Assembly: GCA_016650045.1 (NCBI GenBank)
Contig: JAENWK010000010.1
Span: 1-42,423 of the forward strand
Reading direction: 5' to 3'
Length of the DNA stretch: 42,423 nucleotides
Origin: Eubacteriaceae bacterium
Lineage (GTDB): Bacteria; Bacillota; Clostridia; Eubacteriales; Eubacteriaceae
Numbering within the stretch: position 1 is the first letter of the stretch; each line of letters begins with the position of its first letter. The translations under genes and the position numbers were made by a program. The notes beneath the pieces were generated by a model that searched no databases, was not told the origin of the DNA, and worked only from the letters and a program-made list of their open reading frames with translations. Positions 9,919 to 17,121 of this stretch are shown here, piece after piece.

Positions 9919-10446
9919 TTACTCAGTGTATAGCATCAGTCCAAAATAAGTAACTTTATTTGGACCATTATTATAAGTCATATTATACGCACGTGACAAC
10001 TGGACCACATCAATTCCCGCCGCTTCCAGGGATGGAATTGCTTCAGTTGGAAATCGACAGGGTTCATCAGTTAAAATGGCGCACTCTTTACAAATGGAAC
10101 AGGTTCCGGCTGAAAAAAAGAGACAATCAATTCCCTTTGATTTTTCTTCTTTCATTATTTCTTGAATTTTTTCTCGAAATTTAAGCCCACCATCAACCAT
10201 ACCTTCATAGTCATACTTATCTTCAACTTCGTAAACGTTTGAGAAAAGCAATCCCTTTTTATAGCTCAGTATAATATCTTTATACGCATCCAAATCACCT
10301 ACAGATGGTGGGCACATATGATTTTTACCATAAAACCCACAATAATTATCCGCACAACGATCTCTTATTTCCTGGGTAATTTGAATTGAATTCAGATCAA
10401 TATCAACCACTTCGAAAAATTTTTCGGCAATAAGCAATTCTTTCAT
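9919..10446 (-). CDS. DUF2284 metal-binding protein
   Basis: The 175-residue protein has the DUF2284 pattern of conserved cysteines: CADNYCGFYGKNHMC near residues 29-43 and CSICKECAILTDEPC in the second half, probably holding a metal or iron-sulfur centre. Members of this family are often found in anaerobes near corrinoid methyltransferase genes, which fits the position here. The longer frame starting upstream at 10482 is rejected because a -10 element overlaps it and AGAAGGGA precedes the ATG at 10446. It follows the methyltransferase operon after a terminator-like hairpin but has its own promoter. The reaction is unknown; reductive activation or electron transfer is a guess. Confidence 0.78.
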   Translation of the reverse strand: MKELLIAEKFFEVVDIDLNSIQITQEIRDRCADNYCGFYGKNHMCPPSVGDLDAYKDIILSYKKGLLFSNVYEVEDKYDYEGMVDGGLKFREKIQEIMKEEKSKGIDCLFFSAGTCSICKECAILTDEPCRFPTEAIPSLEAAGIDVVQLSRAYNMTYNNGPNKVTYFGLMLYTE

Positions 10447-10604: not shown

Positions 10605-11408
10605 TTATTTTTTTATAAACGCATTTTTTGCTCCAGTGGTATATTTGCGGCAAAACCGGTCCTTGCCCAAAAGCAATTCAGTCGCTTTTAAAGATTCAAT
10701 CAAAGGTACATTATCCGGATTAACCACTGCTGAATCCATGCCTGCTTCAACCGCCAGGGTGAGAAAGGTTCTGTTGACTAATGCCCGGTTTGGCAGACCA
10801 AAGGAAATATTACTCAGCCCCCCGGTAATATGGGCTTCCGGATAGGTCTTTCGAATGGCTCGAATGGATTCAAAGGCAATGAGTCCTGCCTTCTGATCCG
10901 TTGCAACCGCCATAATCAGTGGGTCGATAAACACTTTACTGTCTGTAATCCCAGCCGCACGTGTGGCCTTGAAAATATTTTCAAGTACAATCATCCGCTC
11001 TTCCACCGTTTTTGGCATCCCGGACTTAGATTCATCCAATGCTAACGCAATCACATTACAGTCACGTTCTTTAATAAACGGAATGAAACTTTCCAGTCGT
11101 TTGGGATCACCATTAATGGAATTGATCAATGGTGTAGCTTTCACTGCATGAATGGCTTCTTTAATGACTTCTGGGGTAGAACTGTCAATGCAGATGGGTA
11201 TATCAGTTACTGATTGCACCACATCAATCAGCCACAGCATATCTTCTTTTTCCCTGGAAGGATCAGTACCGGCATTGACGTCCAAATAATCCGCCCCTGC
11301 CTGGGCCTGGTCCAAAGCTGTTTTTTTAATCAGCTCTGCATCCCGGTCAATGATTGCCTGCTGGATGATTTTTCGTGTGCCATTAATTTTTTCTCCGATA
11401 AATATCAT
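10605..11408 (-). CDS. Methyltetrahydrofolate:corrinoid protein methyltransferase
   Basis: This is the second methyltransferase of a corrinoid methyl-transfer system. It passes the methyl group between a methylated corrinoid protein and tetrahydrofolate, supplying methyl-H4folate to the Wood-Ljungdahl pathway. The 267-residue protein is a pterin-binding TIM barrel with the MeTr signatures in order: IGEKINGTRK at residues 4-13, YLDVNAGTD, ICIDSS, INSINGD, IDPLIMAV and the pterin loop GGLSNISFGLPNR. AcsE, MtvA and MtgA share this fold. A role in demethylation is preferred over the acetyl-CoA synthase operon because of the neighbours. It follows the UroD-family gene by 15 bases and should be in the same transcript. 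Confidence 0.88.
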   Translation of the reverse strand: MIFIGEKINGTRKIIQQAIIDRDAELIKKTALDQAQAGADYLDVNAGTDPSREKEDMLWLIDVVQSVTDIPICIDSSTPEVIKEAIHAVKATPLINSINGDPKRLESFIPFIKERDCNVIALALDESKSGMPKTVEERMIVLENIFKATRAAGITDSKVFIDPLIMAVATDQKAGLIAFESIRAIRKTYPEAHITGGLSNISFGLPNRALVNRTFLTLAVEAGMDSAVVNPDNVPLIESLKATELLLGKDRFCRKYTTGAKNAFIKK

Positions 11409-11423
11409 GAATGTCTCCCTGTA

Positions 11424-12578
11424 TTATTTCCAATCATTGGTTGCTTTAAACATGGCAACCATATTTTCGTGTTTGGTGTTTCCCGGTGCATCACATCCTG
11501 CTGTAATAAACAAACCTTTTGGTCCGAGATCGTCAATTAATTTTGTTACATAGTCTCGTACTTCTTCTGGTGATCCTGTTGCCAATAATGGTGCTGGTAC
11601 ATCGCCCATTAAGCAATAGTTGTCTCCCAATTTTTTTCGTGCTTCCCGCATATCCGTCATGCCGTCAAGATTCAGGATAATTGATTTTTCTGGGAATTCT
11701 GAAAAATGTTCAATATCGCGATCCCAACACTGATCTAAATGAAATGTCGGATTTTTTCCATAGGACAATACTTGATCCCCGGATGCTTTTATATAAGGCC
11801 ATACCAGTTTATTCCAAATTTTAGGAGACAGCATTGCTGAAGCTGTGCGCCATCCACCAATCCAACCACTCACTATATCTGGATTATCTTTATTAGCTTC
11901 CAAAGTTTTAGCCGCTGCAGATTTATTTGCTTCAAAAATAATATTTGATACCTCTACCAATTTATCGGGCATTTTATAACAATCCATATAAAATGCACTC
12001 ATGGATCGAACTCCGCATAAGAGCTCAAAAGGAATTTGGGCTGGTTGAATGTCTGGAGAATTGATGCTCACAATCCCTAATTCTTTTCCTTTTTCTCTAA
12101 TAGCATCTACATTTTCACCGAAAACTTGCAAATATTTTCCAAAATACTCCAAATCGATCACTTTTGGAAGCATTGTGTTAAACCAGGTTTCATAGCCCTG
12201 AGTTAACAGCAAATCGTAATCCTCTTTTTCCATAATTTTTGTTTCCAGAACTTGCCATAACGATGTATCAGATAACTCAATACCAGGTCGCTGAATCTTT
12301 GACAACCAAAGGAGTGTCAGATATGCTGCCATGTTGAAACCCATTGGATTATTATCAATGCATCCAACCGGGCCTGCTTCTTCCTCCAGTCTTTTTACAT
12401 AATCATATTGGGCATAGGCTCCTTTAACAGGATCCGCAATATACTCAGCCAGTGTCATTCCCATTTGAATGGGAGCTGGTGCTATCCCCATGTAGCAACT
12501 AACGGGTCGATCATTTTCACAATGAATTGTTTTATAAACCATATCTAAATTGGAATTAAATTTTTCATAAGTTGCCAT
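11424..12578 (-). CDS. Uroporphyrinogen decarboxylase-family corrinoid methyltransferase (MtaA/MtbA/MtvB-like)
   Basis: The 384-residue protein has the UroD-type barrel used by zinc methyltransferases that exchange methyl groups with corrinoid proteins. Candidate zinc ligands are H280 and C284 in FHLDQCWD and C362 in ITAGCDAP. C-terminal sequence GDVPAPLLATGSPEEV is typical of the family. In acetogens such proteins serve as substrate-specific first methyltransferases, for example in O-demethylation of methoxylated aromatics. The substrate here cannot be told from sequence. The start at 12578 (MATYEKF) is chosen for the AAGGAGATG Shine-Dalgarno; the longer frame runs into the preceding corrinoid gene. 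It starts one base after that gene's stop codon, so translation is coupled. Confidence 0.85.
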   Translation of the reverse strand: MATYEKFNSNLDMVYKTIHCENDRPVSCYMGIAPAPIQMGMTLAEYIADPVKGAYAQYDYVKRLEEEAGPVGCIDNNPMGFNMAAYLTLLWLSKIQRPGIELSDTSLWQVLETKIMEKEDYDLLLTQGYETWFNTMLPKVIDLEYFGKYLQVFGENVDAIREKGKELGIVSINSPDIQPAQIPFELLCGVRSMSAFYMDCYKMPDKLVEVSNIIFEANKSAAAKTLEANKDNPDIVSGWIGGWRTASAMLSPKIWNKLVWPYIKASGDQVLSYGKNPTFHLDQCWDRDIEHFSEFPEKSIILNLDGMTDMREARKKLGDNYCLMGDVPAPLLATGSPEEVRDYVTKLIDDLGPKGLFITAGCDAPGNTKHENMVAMFKATNDWK

Positions 12579-12579
12579 A

Positions 12580-13197
12580 TTACAACATCTCCTTACATAA
12601 GCTAACTGCCGATTGGGCATCGTTCCCAAATGCGTCAGCACCGGTGTATCTCACTACTGTTTCATCAGTAGGTCCGCCGCCAATAATAATCTTAACCTGA
12701 TCCCTTAAACCGGCATCTTTAACTGCATTAATAGTATTTAAAATCGAATCATAACAGGTAGTCAATAAACAGGATAATGCCAGAATGGGAGCTCCGGATT
12801 CTTTAAGCGCTTCAACAAATGCTTCCGGTTTGGCATCAACCCCAACATCAATAACATCAAAGCCTCCTGATTTAAGCATGACATAAACCAGATCTTTGCC
12901 TATATCGTGGATATCCCCTTCAACCGTTCCCAACACTACCTTGGCCAGAATATCCCCGGTTTTTCCATCTAAATAGGGTTCCAGCATTTCGCCGACTTCC
13001 TTAAACATCGCTCCGGACATCATTAAGTCTGATACAAAGTAGTCTCCATTGGAAAATCTCTCCCCAACATCGACCATTCCAGCTTCACATTCTTTAAGGA
13101 TACTCAGAGGCTCTGTTCCCGCATCCAATTCTTTTTGAACAACTTCCATTAACTCATCCATTTCCAGATTTGCTAATAATTCACTTATTTTCGCCAT
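12580..13197 (-). CDS. Corrinoid protein of methyltransferase system (MtvC/MtmC-like)
   Basis: The 205-residue methyl-carrier protein has an N-terminal helical cap (about 1-85) and a Rossmann-type cobalamin-binding domain. The base-off/His-on motif EGDIHDIGKDL gives the lower axial His, with LSCLLTT and IIGGGP completing the pocket. It shuttles a methyl group on cobalt between the UroD-family enzyme and the H4folate methyltransferase encoded directly downstream. The start at 13197 follows GGAGGAAGAAAA. A GTG five codons earlier is less likely. A hairpin at 13227-13258 separates it from the upstream small gene. Confidence 0.93.
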   Translation of the reverse strand: MAKISELLANLEMDELMEVVQKELDAGTEPLSILKECEAGMVDVGERFSNGDYFVSDLMMSGAMFKEVGEMLEPYLDGKTGDILAKVVLGTVEGDIHDIGKDLVYVMLKSGGFDVIDVGVDAKPEAFVEALKESGAPILALSCLLTTCYDSILNTINAVKDAGLRDQVKIIIGGGPTDETVVRYTGADAFGNDAQSAVSLCKEML

Positions 13198-13264: not shown

Positions 13265-13747
13265 TTAATGAGAATGTTCACATTTTTCTTCTGTATGATG
13301 TTCATGGCAAACCGGACACTTTTCCCCATGATAACCAGGGTCTTTTGTATTGCTATGAGCATGCTCGTTATAATCGGTCATCAGTTCATATACACTGCAG
13401 GTTCTCTCTAAAGCCATTTGAAAATATTGAATACTCTTTTCTTTGTTTAATCCGCTAATAATGGCATTAAAAGTCAAATGCCCTTCTAAACTGGATCCCC
13501 CTGTTTTCAATATTTCGGAATTGATAGGCAAGTCATAACGGATACAACTGAGTTTAATAAAATTATTATTCTCAAGTTCCAGTAAACCTTTGATATGGCC
13601 GATCACAACCTTTTCAGCTTTTTCTAATTGTTCAACATATTTCTCGATAAAATAGGAACTCATTTCCTGCCATCTTTTATCTGGCATCTTTTTTCTTGAA
13701 ATGAATGTTACCTCAAGTGCCAATGTTTCGAATTCATTCTGATACAT
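13265..13747 (-). CDS. Small protein with a His/Cys-rich C-terminal tail, partner of a CobW-like GTPase
   Basis: I do not recognise a named family with confidence. The 160-residue protein has a mixed helix/strand body (about 1-125), including a Glu/Lys-rich helix near residues 30-55. It ends in a metal-binding tail: C144, C147, H148, H150, H151, C156, H158 and H160, in CPVCHEHHTEEKCEHSH. There is no signal peptide or membrane segment. TAGGAGG precedes the ATG. It lies 15 bases after the GTPase gene and upstream of the corrinoid and methyltransferase genes. His-rich tails are common in CobW/HypB/UreE-type metal chaperones, so a role in metal or corrinoid handling for the methyltransferases is inferred. 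Confidence 0.65.
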   Translation of the reverse strand: MYQNEFETLALEVTFISRKKMPDKRWQEMSSYFIEKYVEQLEKAEKVVIGHIKGLLELENNNFIKLSCIRYDLPINSEILKTGGSSLEGHLTFNAIISGLNKEKSIQYFQMALERTCSVYELMTDYNEHAHSNTKDPGYHGEKCPVCHEHHTEEKCEHSH

Positions 13748-13762
13748 TCGATGCCTCCTATA

Positions 13763-14359
13763 TTAACCTTCTAGAATTTTTTTAATTATTCCAGAGTCAC
13801 CATCGTTTACATTTATTCTAAAAATCGAAACATCTTTATTATATTTGCGAATGACTCTTACCGATTCTTCCATTTCGAATGCTGTGGCAACGTCAATTTT
13901 ATTAATGATCACCGCATTGGCCAGTGGAATGGATGATTCCAGGTATGGTTCCAGCACGGCTTCAAACATGTCTACTCGCAAAGGATCCATAATGAAAATA
14001 TTTTTAATTTTTTGGGCCGAATACCCACTGTGTTCCAGTGGTTTATAAAGAGCTGATGGATCCGATGCTCCTGAAGGCTCTAATAAAATAAAGTCAAGAT
14101 CGTAATTATTTAATAATTGATGAATGGTTTCTTCTAGACTTATGGCCAGTGTACAACATATACAGCCTCCAAATATTTCCCAAACATTAAATCCCATTTT
14201 TTTCATCTGCAAATTATCAATGCCAATTTCGCCGACTTCATTAACAATAATGCCACATTTCTTGGAACTTTCAGATAAAACCTGGGCACACTTTAATAGC
14301 AATGATGTTTTTCCGGATCCCAGAAAACCGGTAAACAATATTAATTGTGGATATTTCAA
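13763..14359 (-). CDS. CobW/HypB/UreG-type GTPase, GTPase domain only
   Basis: The 198-residue protein is a G3E-family P-loop GTPase, a group that includes metal and cofactor chaperones (CobW, HypB, UreG, MeaB). Motifs: Walker A GFLGSGKT at 11-18, NEVGEIGID around 40-48, the CobW metal site GGCICCT with C66, C68 and C69, LLEPSG near 95, and the base-specificity NKID. Typical CobW proteins have about 300-400 residues with a C-terminal domain; that domain is missing here. I chose the TTG at 14359, giving KYPQLILFTGF as in other family members, with GGGAAGG upstream. A GTG at 14377 is possible but overlaps the operator. It is the first gene of the methyltransferase operon. Confidence 0.82.
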   Translation of the reverse strand: MKYPQLILFTGFLGSGKTSLLLKCAQVLSESSKKCGIIVNEVGEIGIDNLQMKKMGFNVWEIFGGCICCTLAISLEETIHQLLNNYDLDFILLEPSGASDPSALYKPLEHSGYSAQKIKNIFIMDPLRVDMFEAVLEPYLESSIPLANAVIINKIDVATAFEMEESVRVIRKYNKDVSIFRINVNDGDSGIIKKILEG

Positions 14360-14375: not shown

Positions 14376-14391
14376 ACTTATACGTACAAGT
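14376..14391. promoter_or_regulatory. Palindromic operator of the methyltransferase operon
   Basis: ACTTATACGTACAAGT is a 16-base palindrome with one mismatched pair. It lies 12 bases downstream of the -10 at 14404-14409. It shares TGTACGTA (minus strand) with the promoter of the gntR operon at 15868-15875, at almost the same distance from the -10. The nearby GntR/UTRA protein is the natural candidate to bind it. Confidence 0.65.
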
Positions 14392-14403: not shown

Positions 14404-14432
14404 AATATAACCCTCTGTAAACGTTTTGTCAA
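14404..14432 (-). promoter_or_regulatory. Promoter of the corrinoid methyltransferase operon
   Basis: On the minus strand TTGACA (14427-14432) and TATATT (14404-14409) are 17 bases apart, close to consensus. It lies between the terminator of the gntR operon and the GTPase gene. Confidence 0.85.
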
Positions 14433-14441
14433 TGGTTAAAT

Positions 14442-14474
14442 AAAAAAAGTCGAATGAACAAAATTCATTCGACT
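14442..14474 (-). terminator. Intrinsic terminator after gntR
   Basis: AGTCGAATGAA (14448-14458) pairs perfectly with TTCATTCGACT (14464-14474) around a five-base loop and is followed on the minus strand by a T-run. It abuts the gntR stop codon. Confidence 0.92.
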
Positions 14475-15200
14475 CTAAAATATTCTCTTATCTTTACTGT
14501 CTTTTGGGGTTGACGCTTTGATGCTTAAATATTTGGGACTTACATAAAACCAGGCATATTCGAGGATTTTATTGGTGGCTTCATTTTTAATAATTTCTGT
14601 GATCTCAAAAATCGGTTCATTGATCTTTATATTAAGTCTTTCACAAATTTCTTCAGATGGCATCGTGACCGAGATATTAAGCGATTTATCCAAAACGAAT
14701 GCCAGCTTTTCTTCAACAGGCTTAAGATAATTGGCAAATTTAAGCATATCTTCAATCACAGGCTGATTATGAACATAGGGTAGATAAATGATTTCCATGG
14801 CAATTTCTTTTTTATCCGAACACAATACTCTAACGACTTCTACGGCCTTCTGATTATCGTCAAGATTAAGGATGCGATCAATCTGTTTTGGTGGAAACAT
14901 CACTTTAACCGATAATAATTTTACGCGATCAATATGGGTATTCAACCCGTCATATTTATTAAACTTAAATTGGAAAATATCCACCTCGGGTTTGCAAACA
15001 AAATTCCCTTTACCCGGCACCGAATAAATATAACCTTCATTGGACAAAAGGGATAAACTCTTGCGTATGGTCATTCGGCTTGCTGAATACTCATTCATTA
15101 ATGAGGTTTCAGAATTCAGCATATCACCCGGTTTAAGCTTACTTTTTAGAATCTTTTCTTTTAAACTTGTTACAATCGCTAAATATAAAACATCACTCAT
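14475..15200 (-). CDS. GntR-family (HutC/UTRA type) transcriptional regulator
   Basis: The 241-residue protein has an N-terminal winged helix (about 1-70), with SASRMTIRKSLSLLSNEGYI forming the recognition helix and wing and KGNFV following. A UTRA ligand-binding domain (about 90-235) has the typical KKEIAMEIIYLPY strand. HutC-type regulators normally repress their targets until a small effector binds the UTRA domain. It overlaps the second corrinoid gene by four bases (ATGA) and is therefore translated from the same mRNA. It probably controls both its own operon and the adjacent methyltransferase operon through the shared TGTACGTA site. The effector could be a methylated growth substrate; this is inference. 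Confidence 0.9.
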   Translation of the reverse strand: MSDVLYLAIVTSLKEKILKSKLKPGDMLNSETSLMNEYSASRMTIRKSLSLLSNEGYIYSVPGKGNFVCKPEVDIFQFKFNKYDGLNTHIDRVKLLSVKVMFPPKQIDRILNLDDNQKAVEVVRVLCSDKKEIAMEIIYLPYVHNQPVIEDMLKFANYLKPVEEKLAFVLDKSLNISVTMPSEEICERLNIKINEPIFEITEIIKNEATNKILEYAWFYVSPKYLSIKASTPKDSKDKRIF

Positions 15201-15850
15201 TCACCTTTTTCTCCTTCTATTTTTTTCCGGAGATAAACTTCACAATATTTGATACCTTCGTAAAAATTATTGGTCATAAAATCAATTTGCGGAATTCTAA
15301 CATACTCATTATTGACAACGGCACCGCCTAATAAAAAACGACGATTTTTCAGAAGTTTTTCTTTTTCCAAGGCAATTCCCAATTCTTCAATAAAGCCAAT
15401 GGAATTAATCATTACGCAACTGACCGCAATAATATCCGGATTATGTTGTTTAACGGCTTCAATAAATTTTTCAACTTTAACATCAACCCCCAGGTCTATG
15501 ACTTTGATTCCTTTGTTTTCAAGGGCATCCACCATTAAATCCTTACCGATGTCATGGATGTCATCATAAATTGTTCCAATAATAACCGTTCCCAGTGGTT
15601 CTGAAGGCTTTTGGCTATCCTTGGAAATATTTGCCGCTTCAAATATGTTTTTAGCCATCATTCCCGAGACGATAAGATCTGCGATAAAACATTCGCCATT
15701 TTCATACTTATTACCAATTTCCGCCAAACCATCCATGACCACATCATAAAGACTTTGGGAATCAATCCCGTTGCGAATTAATTGGTCTGCACAAGCCTCT
15801 GCTTCATCTAACTTTAAATCGACAATGAATTCTTTTAGTTTTTCCTTCAT
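15197..15850 (-). CDS. Second corrinoid (cobalamin-binding) protein
   Basis: The 217-residue protein has the same two-domain plan as the corrinoid protein at 12580: a helical cap (about 1-80) and a cobalamin-binding domain with YDDIHDIGKDL (lower-ligand His), VSCVMINS and LLGGAVV. The sequences are clearly diverged, for example GECFIADLIVSGMMAKN against GDYFVSDLMMSGAMFKE. It is the first gene of a two-gene operon with gntR and has no methyltransferase beside it. It could serve the methyltransferases downstream as an alternative carrier, or act in sensing. ATG follows a weak AAGGGGAAAAG Shine-Dalgarno. Confidence 0.88.
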   Translation of the reverse strand: MKEKLKEFIVDLKLDEAEACADQLIRNGIDSQSLYDVVMDGLAEIGNKYENGECFIADLIVSGMMAKNIFEAANISKDSQKPSEPLGTVIIGTIYDDIHDIGKDLMVDALENKGIKVIDLGVDVKVEKFIEAVKQHNPDIIAVSCVMINSIGFIEELGIALEKEKLLKNRRFLLGGAVVNNEYVRIPQIDFMTNNFYEGIKYCEVYLRKKIEGEKGE

Positions 15851-15867
15851 CTTTTCCCCTTAACTCT

Positions 15868-15875
15868 TACGTACA
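15868..15875. promoter_or_regulatory. Putative GntR operator core upstream of the corrinoid-gntR operon
   Basis: TACGTACA on the plus strand (TGTACGTA on the minus) is identical to the core of the palindrome at 14381-14388. It lies 14 bases after the -10, against 15 at the other promoter. Flanking symmetry is weaker here. Confidence 0.5.
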
Positions 15876-15889
15876 TATCTGTATGCCTG

Positions 15890-15918
15890 ATTGTATCATA
15901 ATTATTTTTATAGTTAAA
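15890..15918 (-). promoter_or_regulatory. Promoter of the corrinoid-gntR operon
   Basis: On the minus strand TTTAAC (15913-15918) and TACAAT (15890-15895) are 17 bases apart. The -35 is weaker than at the methyltransferase operon. Confidence 0.55.
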
Positions 15919-16074
15919 GACTCTTATCTCATCTATTTTATAAAAAATTCAAATAGATTCCTTTGTGAGTGTCTAATTCTGCTTGTAAATCCGTATTTTT
16001 TTAATTCAACACGATATCTTGCCTTAAGACAATCCTTGATTAACCATAAATTTTCAATCTTTTCACTGTAGATA

Positions 16075-16103
16075 TTGACAAAAATTGACAGTCAGGCTAT
16101 GAT
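16075..16103 (+). promoter_or_regulatory. Promoter of the parvulin gene
   Basis: TTGACA (16075-16080) and TATGAT (16098-16103) are 17 bases apart. A second TTGACA follows ten bases after the first (16085-16090). Confidence 0.8.
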
Positions 16104-16145
16104 CTTTAGAGAATAAAATTATTTACAATGTTAAAGGAGATTATT

Positions 16146-16901
16146 ATGGAAAAAACCGTTATGGCAACCGTTGAAGGTAAAACAATTTACAGCTCGGATT
16201 TAGATATCTTAATTAAACAATTACCTCAAGAACAGGCAAACCAGTTTTTAACTCGTGAAGGACGTCGTCAGCTATTAGAAGAGCTCATCGCCCAGGAGCT
16301 TTTTTATTTAGAAGGCAAGGAAGCAAAAGCTGAGGAAACCGAAGAATTTAAAAAAATGGTTAAAAATGCAGAAGAAAAACTTTTAAAAACACATATGATC
16401 GCACAATTTATGAAAGATATTACCATTCCGGAAGAAGACATTCAGAAGTTTTACAGTGAAAATCCTGATCAATTCATAGCCCCGGACAGTATTCGTGCAA
16501 GCCATATTCTCTTACCTGCTGAGCAACAGGCCATCGACATTATTGCAGAAATTAAAGCAGGTAAAACCTTTGAAGATGCTGCTAAAGAATATTCTGTTTG
16601 TCCATCAAAAGACAATGGCGGAGATTTAAGCTATTTCTCCAAAGGACAAATGGTTCCAGAATTTGAAGCGGCTGCCTTTGCTCTAGAAGTGGGTCAAATG
16701 ACTGAAGTTCCTGTAAAAACCCAGTTTGGTTTTCATGTGATCAAATTGACTGATCGAAAAGAATCGCAAACCATTCCCTATGACGAAATAAAAGATAATG
16801 CCGGAAGCTTCCTGTTACGGCAAAAACAAAATATTGCATTTATCGGCAAGGTCGAAGACCTTAAGAAAAAATACAAGGTTGAAATTCAAAACGGTTTATA
16901 A
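16146..16901 (+). CDS. Cytoplasmic parvulin-type peptidyl-prolyl cis-trans isomerase
   Basis: The 251-residue protein has an N-terminal SurA/PrsA-like helical segment (about 1-110) and a parvulin domain (about 115-210). That domain shows IRASHILL, EYSVCPSKDNGGDLSYFSKGQ and TQFGFHVIKL, the standard rotamase signatures. Unlike PrsA it has no signal peptide or lipobox, so it should act in the cytoplasm as a folding catalyst or chaperone. The start at 16146 follows AAAGGAG; an in-frame ATG six codons earlier lies before this site. It is a single-gene unit with its own promoter and a shared terminator. Confidence 0.9.
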   Translation: MEKTVMATVEGKTIYSSDLDILIKQLPQEQANQFLTREGRRQLLEELIAQELFYLEGKEAKAEETEEFKKMVKNAEEKLLKTHMIAQFMKDITIPEEDIQKFYSENPDQFIAPDSIRASHILLPAEQQAIDIIAEIKAGKTFEDAAKEYSVCPSKDNGGDLSYFSKGQMVPEFEAAAFALEVGQMTEVPVKTQFGFHVIKLTDRKESQTIPYDEIKDNAGSFLLRQKQNIAFIGKVEDLKKKYKVEIQNGL

Positions 16902-16906
16902 AAAAA

Positions 16907-16926
16907 GGCGGAGATTAATCTCCGTC
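16907..16926. terminator. Bidirectional terminator between convergent genes
   Basis: CGGAGATT pairs with AATCTCCG (16909-16924), extended by one wobble and one G-C pair. T-rich tracts follow on both strands. It ends the isomerase gene on the plus strand and the small membrane-protein gene on the minus strand. Confidence 0.85.
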
Positions 16927-16941
16927 TCTTTTTCTATTTTC

Positions 16942-17121
16942 TTATTCTTCTATTTGTTTCTCTTTTTTACAGCATTCCTGGTGATGGCATTTATGGGCAC
17001 AAATAATCCCACCAATAAAAACAATTTTAACCAATGCCATAGCCGCTAAACATCCCATAACCATATGTTTATGATTAGCTAAGCAACATTGACCTTCTTC
17101 TTTTTTTTCATGACTATACAT
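16942..17121 (-). CDS. 59-residue Cys/His-rich single-span membrane protein
   Basis: The short open frame begins with an ATG seven bases after GGAGG and reads MYSHEKKEEGQCCLANHK. One hydrophobic helix follows (about residues 21-42, with KIVFIGGIICA), then a cluster CAHKCHHQECCKK and an acidic end. It has seven Cys and five or more His residues flanking a single membrane span, which suggests metal binding at the membrane or a structural small protein. I do not recognise the family. The ribosome binding site, convergent terminator and clean frame support a real gene. No function is assigned. Confidence 0.65.
   Translation of the reverse strand: MYSHEKKEEGQCCLANHKHMVMGCLAAMALVKIVFIGGIICAHKCHHQECCKKEKQIEE

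Follow-up and report, generated by a model that had tools for sequence, protein, structure and literature searches.

The window, a 42,423-nucleotide stretch of DNA from an Acetobacterium-like member of the Eubacteriaceae, carries two adjacent genes that probably encode a COG0523 (CobW-type) metallochaperone divided over two proteins, one that likely loads metal into the substrate methyltransferase of the same operon. Both open reading frames are on the minus strand. The first encodes a stand-alone G3E/COG0523 GTPase (13763..14359) and its stop codon is separated from the start of the second by 15 bp. The second encodes a partner of 160 amino acids, with a predicted detached CobW-type C-terminal domain (residues 1-125, 13373..13747) followed by a His/Cys-rich tail (residues 126-160 plus the stop codon, 13265..13372). 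This tail has 8 His and 3 Cys in 35 residues and ends in CPVCHEHHTEEKCEHSH, in agreement with the preliminary description of a His/Cys-tailed protein encoded next to the GTPase.

Read from a TTG codon at 14359, the GTPase is 198 amino acids long and begins MKYPQLILFTGF. It possesses the Walker A motif GFLGSGKT, a CxCC motif within GGCICCT, EPSG with the Walker B Glu, and the NKID motif. The frame is open up to a GTG at 14377, which would give a protein of 204 amino acids. The TTG is preferred because close orthologues have 196-200 amino acids, because the ribosome site GGGAAGG lies past the GTG, and because a palindrome overlaps the GTG. PF02492 (Pfam) matches residues 13-185 with an E-value of 1.5e-32 and 113 bits against a cut-off of 20.7, and a search of PDB sequences aligns residues 7-195 of E. 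coli YjiA to residues 13-198 (E 3.9e-14). The reading frame stops near the end of the CobW G-domain, with no C-terminal domain in the same chain, although most COG0523 proteins, if not every one, have it there. The motifs, the length of about 198 residues, and the missing C-terminal domain had all been noted from the letters of the DNA, and all are borne out here.

The predicted structure of the GTPase aligns with UreG (Z 16.9, residues 10-204) and HypB (Z 16.2, residues 7-204), and as modeled the protein is a complete small G3E-type fold with the COG0523 CxCC motif. Walker A and CxCC are present in 54/54 split GTPases, and an NKxD pattern in 49/54. Scores against named families are below the cut-offs: 65.5 bits for TIGR02475, CobW of cobalamin synthesis (cut-off 332.1), and 36.7 bits for TIGR00073, HypB (cut-off 121.2).

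The partner has no match in Pfam (up to E 1, including CobW_C, PF07683), in NCBIfam, or among PDB sequences. Its AlphaFold2 (AF2) model has pLDDT values >90 over most of residues 1-125, with a predicted domain at residues 6-124 of the order beta-alpha-beta-beta-beta-beta-alpha, and the tail is modeled with low confidence. The best three Foldseek matches of the model are chains of YjiA (E 0.0038-0.011, probability 1.00), and VIA-align places the domain on the YjiA C-terminal domain, residues 217-318 (Z 6.3). Generic ferredoxin-like domains, including the lid of M20 peptidases, outscore YjiA in VIA-align (Z 8.4). These domains have no link to the partner by sequence or context, and their resemblance is therefore taken as generic fold similarity and not as kinship.

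Profile comparisons give a strong match to one group of full-length CobW-type proteins and a weak one to canonical CobW_C. A profile of 23 family members matches residues 260-315 of full-length CobW-like Eubacterium proteins of 362 amino acids (E 6e-6). With hhalign, the partner aligns to the methyltransferase-linked group of full-length CobW-like proteins with a probability of 93% and an E-value of 3e-7. The hhalign match to canonical CobW_C is weak (probability 9.6%), and its score of 22.3 exceeds all 20 column-shuffled controls (maximum 17.7). In that alignment, the GHIKG motif of the partner falls on the 'RAKG' position of CobW, and GH[ILV]K is found in 56/56 partners. From the YjiA fold match and the profile match to the C-termini of full-length CobW-like proteins, we conclude that the partner is predicted to be a divergent CobW-type C-terminal domain on a chain of its own, the very domain that the GTPase lacks. 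The preliminary description had allowed that the small protein might belong to an unrelated known family; fold and profile both direct it to the CobW type instead. A frameshifted full-length CobW is ruled out, as the start of the partner is conserved in its own right and dozens of genomes have the partner as a separate reading frame. A chance reading frame is likewise ruled out by the conservation of the small protein among Eubacteriaceae.

In the tail, C144, C147, and H151 are kept in the close family. Another group of pairs has its His-rich stretch at the start of the partner, at the position where canonical CobW proteins have theirs, between their two domains. A clear His-rich stretch is missing from 18/56 partners, so the tail is inessential to the family. 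At two loci (L116 7439-8168 and L162 7009-7745), the partner is split again, and the GHIK domain and the His-rich part are separate reading frames.

The order of genes from the GTPase onward is partner, corrinoid protein, URO-D methyltransferase, and methyltetrahydrofolate methyltransferase, all on the minus strand. Corrinoid protein 1 (12580..13197) contains B12-binding and B12-binding_2 domains. The substrate methyltransferase (MTI; 11424..12578), the proposed client of the pair, is assigned to the URO-D family by domain match, and the solved structure closest to it in sequence is CdmB. The methyltetrahydrofolate:corrinoid methyltransferase (MTII; 10605..11408) is assigned by its pterin-binding domain. 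A DUF2284 gene (9919..10446, minus strand, family match), predicted to encode a metal-binding protein and recurrent in these clusters, lies beyond MTII. On the other side of the GTPase are a GntR/UTRA regulator of the cluster (14475..15200, minus strand) and corrinoid protein 2 (15197..15850, minus strand), both family matches, and the second corrinoid protein is kept adjoining the GntR gene in other loci.

Three elements stand between the GntR gene and the GTPase, which for this reason appears to open the operon. The GntR gene is followed by a terminator-like hairpin of 14 pairs and then a T run (14446..14476, minus strand). Ahead of the GTPase is a promoter-like site, TTGACA-17-TATATT (14404..14432, minus strand). 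Both are consensus matches only, and no enrichment is seen over the whole region. The third element is an operator-like pseudo-palindrome, ACTTATACGTACAAGT (14376..14391), located past the -10-like element and ahead of the GTPase ribosome site. The pair had been described as lying inside a methyltransferase operon ahead of the corrinoid protein and the methyltransferases; that order is right, and the correction is that the operon seems to start at the GTPase.

The palindrome is expected by chance 0.01 times, even allowing 2 mismatches. Its pattern, ACTTRTACGTAYAAGT, has an exact match in 25 loci and is just upstream of the GTPase ribosome site wherever this was checked among type-I GTPase genes. 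Judged by its sequence and position, it is likely a putative operator for the GntR/UTRA protein encoded in the cluster. Folding of the palindrome as DNA gives no signal (z 0.08), and an Rfam search of the window and four related loci gives no match.

The pair is conserved as a unit. The small protein is found in 24/40 Eubacteriaceae genomes, and the GTPase reading frame is directly upstream of it in 29/31 loci examined. One of the two exceptions is at a contig edge, and the other (L076) has a GTPase nearby on the opposite strand. Searches with GTPase and partner profiles also find divergent pairs in Clostridia and other Bacillota; these keep both the gene order and the GHIK motif, and their His-rich stretch is sometimes in front of the domain and sometimes absent. 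A co-occurrence search across acetogens and methylotrophs had been suggested at the outset; across Bacillota the two genes are conserved together and directly consecutive at essentially all sites.

The pair is also closely linked to substrate methyltransferases. Fifty-five split-pair loci were fetched, and since L046 is the same as L079, 54 are distinct. An MTI gene of the URO-D family or MtaB type is in the fetched flanks of 51/54, compared with 0/20 full-length CobW control loci, all from Clostridia and phylogenetically unmatched. This linkage is not circular, because the loci were picked by their proteins and not by context. The linked genes are of the URO-D family at 40 loci and MtaB at 11. 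The loci without MTI are L112, which has a corrinoid protein and MTII only; L167, where the sole match resembles a folate-pathway gene; and L178, which is at a contig end. Seen from the methyltransferase side, in Eubacteriaceae a pair is within 6 kb of 15/15 complete MtaB genes and of all 16 URO-D MTI loci of the window type. One or the other of these methyltransferases is at 31/32 small-protein sites in this family, and the remaining site (G026) adjoins another URO-D gene.

This linkage bears on the view that the pair is a metal-sparing or metal-allocation device, like the Zur-regulated YciC/ZigA, that is co-transcribed by chance and has no dedicated client. Members of COG0523 often act in zinc starvation (PMC2770081). 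His-rich tails can store metal, which would suit such a device. The near one-to-one linkage to MTI genes and the conserved operon position speak against it, and the operator-like palindrome, as far as its sequence indicates, fits the GntR of the cluster rather than Zur. A general metal-sparing role is thus quite improbable, and a dedicated client remains the better account.

Several clusters vary in their surroundings. L041 has a second, divergent split pair (15672-17037) 5 kb downstream of the first and beside a further set of methyltransferase genes; the partner protein of this second pair continues past the GHIK domain with an additional C-terminal region. In L043 (10827-11231), and similarly in L044, L046, and L047, a short corrinoid-protein-like reading frame is found between the pair and MtaB; in L043 it has 135 amino acids, of which only a B12-binding_2 domain is recognized. 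The corrinoid protein and URO-D methyltransferase are tandemly duplicated beside the pair in L072 (2995-6522). Genes of DUF1638 recur beside pairs (L112, L163, L165, L166, L169, L171-L173, and L206) and also occur next to the fused CobW gene in the window's own genome.

Full-length counterparts are found in the same setting. In Eubacterium and A. paludosum, full-length CobW-like proteins adjoin URO-D genes, and the A. paludosum locus also has corrinoid-protein and MTII genes. Contig C167 of the window's own genome encodes a fused CobW (PF02492 and PF07683), with genes for a corrinoid protein and a URO-D protein on one side and DUF1638, RACo, and additional URO-D genes on the other. The niche is thus shared by split and fused CobW-type forms. 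A single reading frame of L166 (8442-9575) joins the partner domain to DUF2284, the family of the window gene at 9919..10446, and this fusion ties the window gene to the chaperone system.

The likeliest mechanism, by analogy with CobW/YjiA/ZNG1 and with UreG and UreE, would have the two proteins act as a complex. The His/Cys tail of the detached C-terminal half would collect a divalent metal, and the GTPase would load that metal through its metal-binding CxCC motif. The C-terminal half would recognize the client. Hydrolysis of GTP would then insert the metal into the URO-D-type or MtaB substrate methyltransferase of the same operon.

A role for the pair at the corrinoid protein has to be weighed against this, the pair being either a cobalt chaperone or a GTPase like MeaB, gating or loading cobalamin. 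The corrinoid protein is present at 44/54 distinct split-pair loci, and for this reason it is only partly separable from MTI as a client. MeaB is among the G3E proteins that the GTPase model resembles, but UreG and HypB are closer to the model in fold. Eight pairs (L115, L117, L118, L119, L122, L168, L175, and L177) are beside a URO-D gene with neither a corrinoid protein nor MTII in the flank, and these make the substrate methyltransferase the neighbor that varies least and the likelier client. MttB systems also need corrinoid proteins, yet a one-query search of the fetched flanks finds no MttB near the pairs in the 54 distinct loci. The CxCC motif and His/Cys tails are, moreover, metal sites and not corrinoid sites. 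Service to the corrinoid protein is accordingly unlikely.

A further proposal is that the pair reactivates oxidized corrinoid in place of RACo. It arose from the statement in the preliminary description that the window has no RACo-type activator, which is true of the window and misleading for the organism: the same genome has RACo genes outside the window, and at L165, L166, L170, and L174 RACo and a split pair share a cluster. Neither protein has a RACo, Fer2, redox-active Fe-S, or ASKHA domain match in Pfam. With RACo encoded at these other sites, this role is highly improbable. As for the split chaperone proposed at the same time for cobalt, corrinoid, or the zinc methyltransferase, homology and linkage give good support to the view that the two halves would act together. 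The methyltransferase is the best fit among its targets, and delivery of cobalt or corrinoid fits less well.

Some O-demethylase methyltransferases contain zinc, and E-X27-C-X39-C is the zinc-ligand pattern of the O-demethylase literature. This pattern is present in the window MTI, but its relatives share only the last Cys; it was dropped as proof of zinc and serves as a lead only. MtaB is established as zinc-dependent (Sauer and Thauer 1997, cited in PMC2770081), but CdmB of A. dehalogenans, the nearest solved relative of the window MTI, works without zinc (PMC13222342). Zinc is therefore a best guess for the likeliest metal and not a result.

A wider reading can be offered tentatively. The tailed C-terminal domain would be a previously unrecognized family that, together with a minimal G3E GTPase, forms a dedicated maturation factor for the substrate methyltransferases of corrinoid systems, including MtaB of acetogens, with DUF2284 as part of the same metal-delivery machinery. 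If so, the methanol and methyl-transfer operons of acetogens (Acetobacterium and the Eubacterium limosum group), used in C1 bioproduction, hold a dedicated metal-loading factor whose C-terminal half is unnamed in the annotation libraries searched (Pfam and NCBIfam). COG0523 proteins, whose clients are mostly unknown, would gain a testable client. The pair would also offer a natural separation of the GTPase from the client-recognition or metal-store domain, useful for studies of mechanism, and would be relevant to the transfer of methanol methyltransferases into other hosts.

Part of this setting is known. Haas et al. 2009 (PMC2770081) describe a COG0523 subfamily 13 whose genes, in methanogens and certain clostridia, cluster with those of corrinoid methyltransferase systems, mtaA, mtaB, and mtaC among them, with zinc-dependent enzymes among its neighbors; a split C-terminal domain is not described for COG0523 in the sections at hand. 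A keyword check of papers on the methanol operons of E. limosum and B. methylotrophicum finds no mention of CobW. The clustering of COG0523 GTPases with corrinoid methyltransferases is thus established, and the split form, the identity of the partner, and the tight linkage appear undescribed.

Compared with known systems, the pair resembles subfamily 13, whose members are G3E GTPases with CxCC beside corrinoid methyltransferases, as here with MTI at 51 of the 54 loci; the difference, as far as the sections at hand go, is the detached C-terminal partner. E. coli YjiA (PDB 1nij, 4ixm) resembles the GTPase in G-domain sequence and the partner in C-terminal-domain fold, but YjiA is one chain, whereas the pair is two genes with a His/Cys tail. 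The CobW-related selenoprotein NF041053 is also a short, stand-alone CobW-related GTPase (195-position model), but the window GTPase has Cys instead of Sec and reaches 69.5 bits where the cut-off is 180 (NCBIfam). We know of no link between NF041053 and the partner described here. MeaB/MMAA is likewise a G3E GTPase acting on a B12 system; MeaB serves mutases and, to our knowledge, has neither CxCC nor a His tail. UreG with UreE, and HypB, share with the pair a small G3E GTPase and a separate metal-binding protein, and these two proteins, UreG and HypB, give the best alignments to the GTPase model; UreG relies on its separate partner UreE as metallochaperone, according to the same sections (PMC2770081). 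Unlike UreE, the partner here is of the CobW C-terminal type, and the GTPase has the CxCC of COG0523 and falls far below the HypB cut-off.
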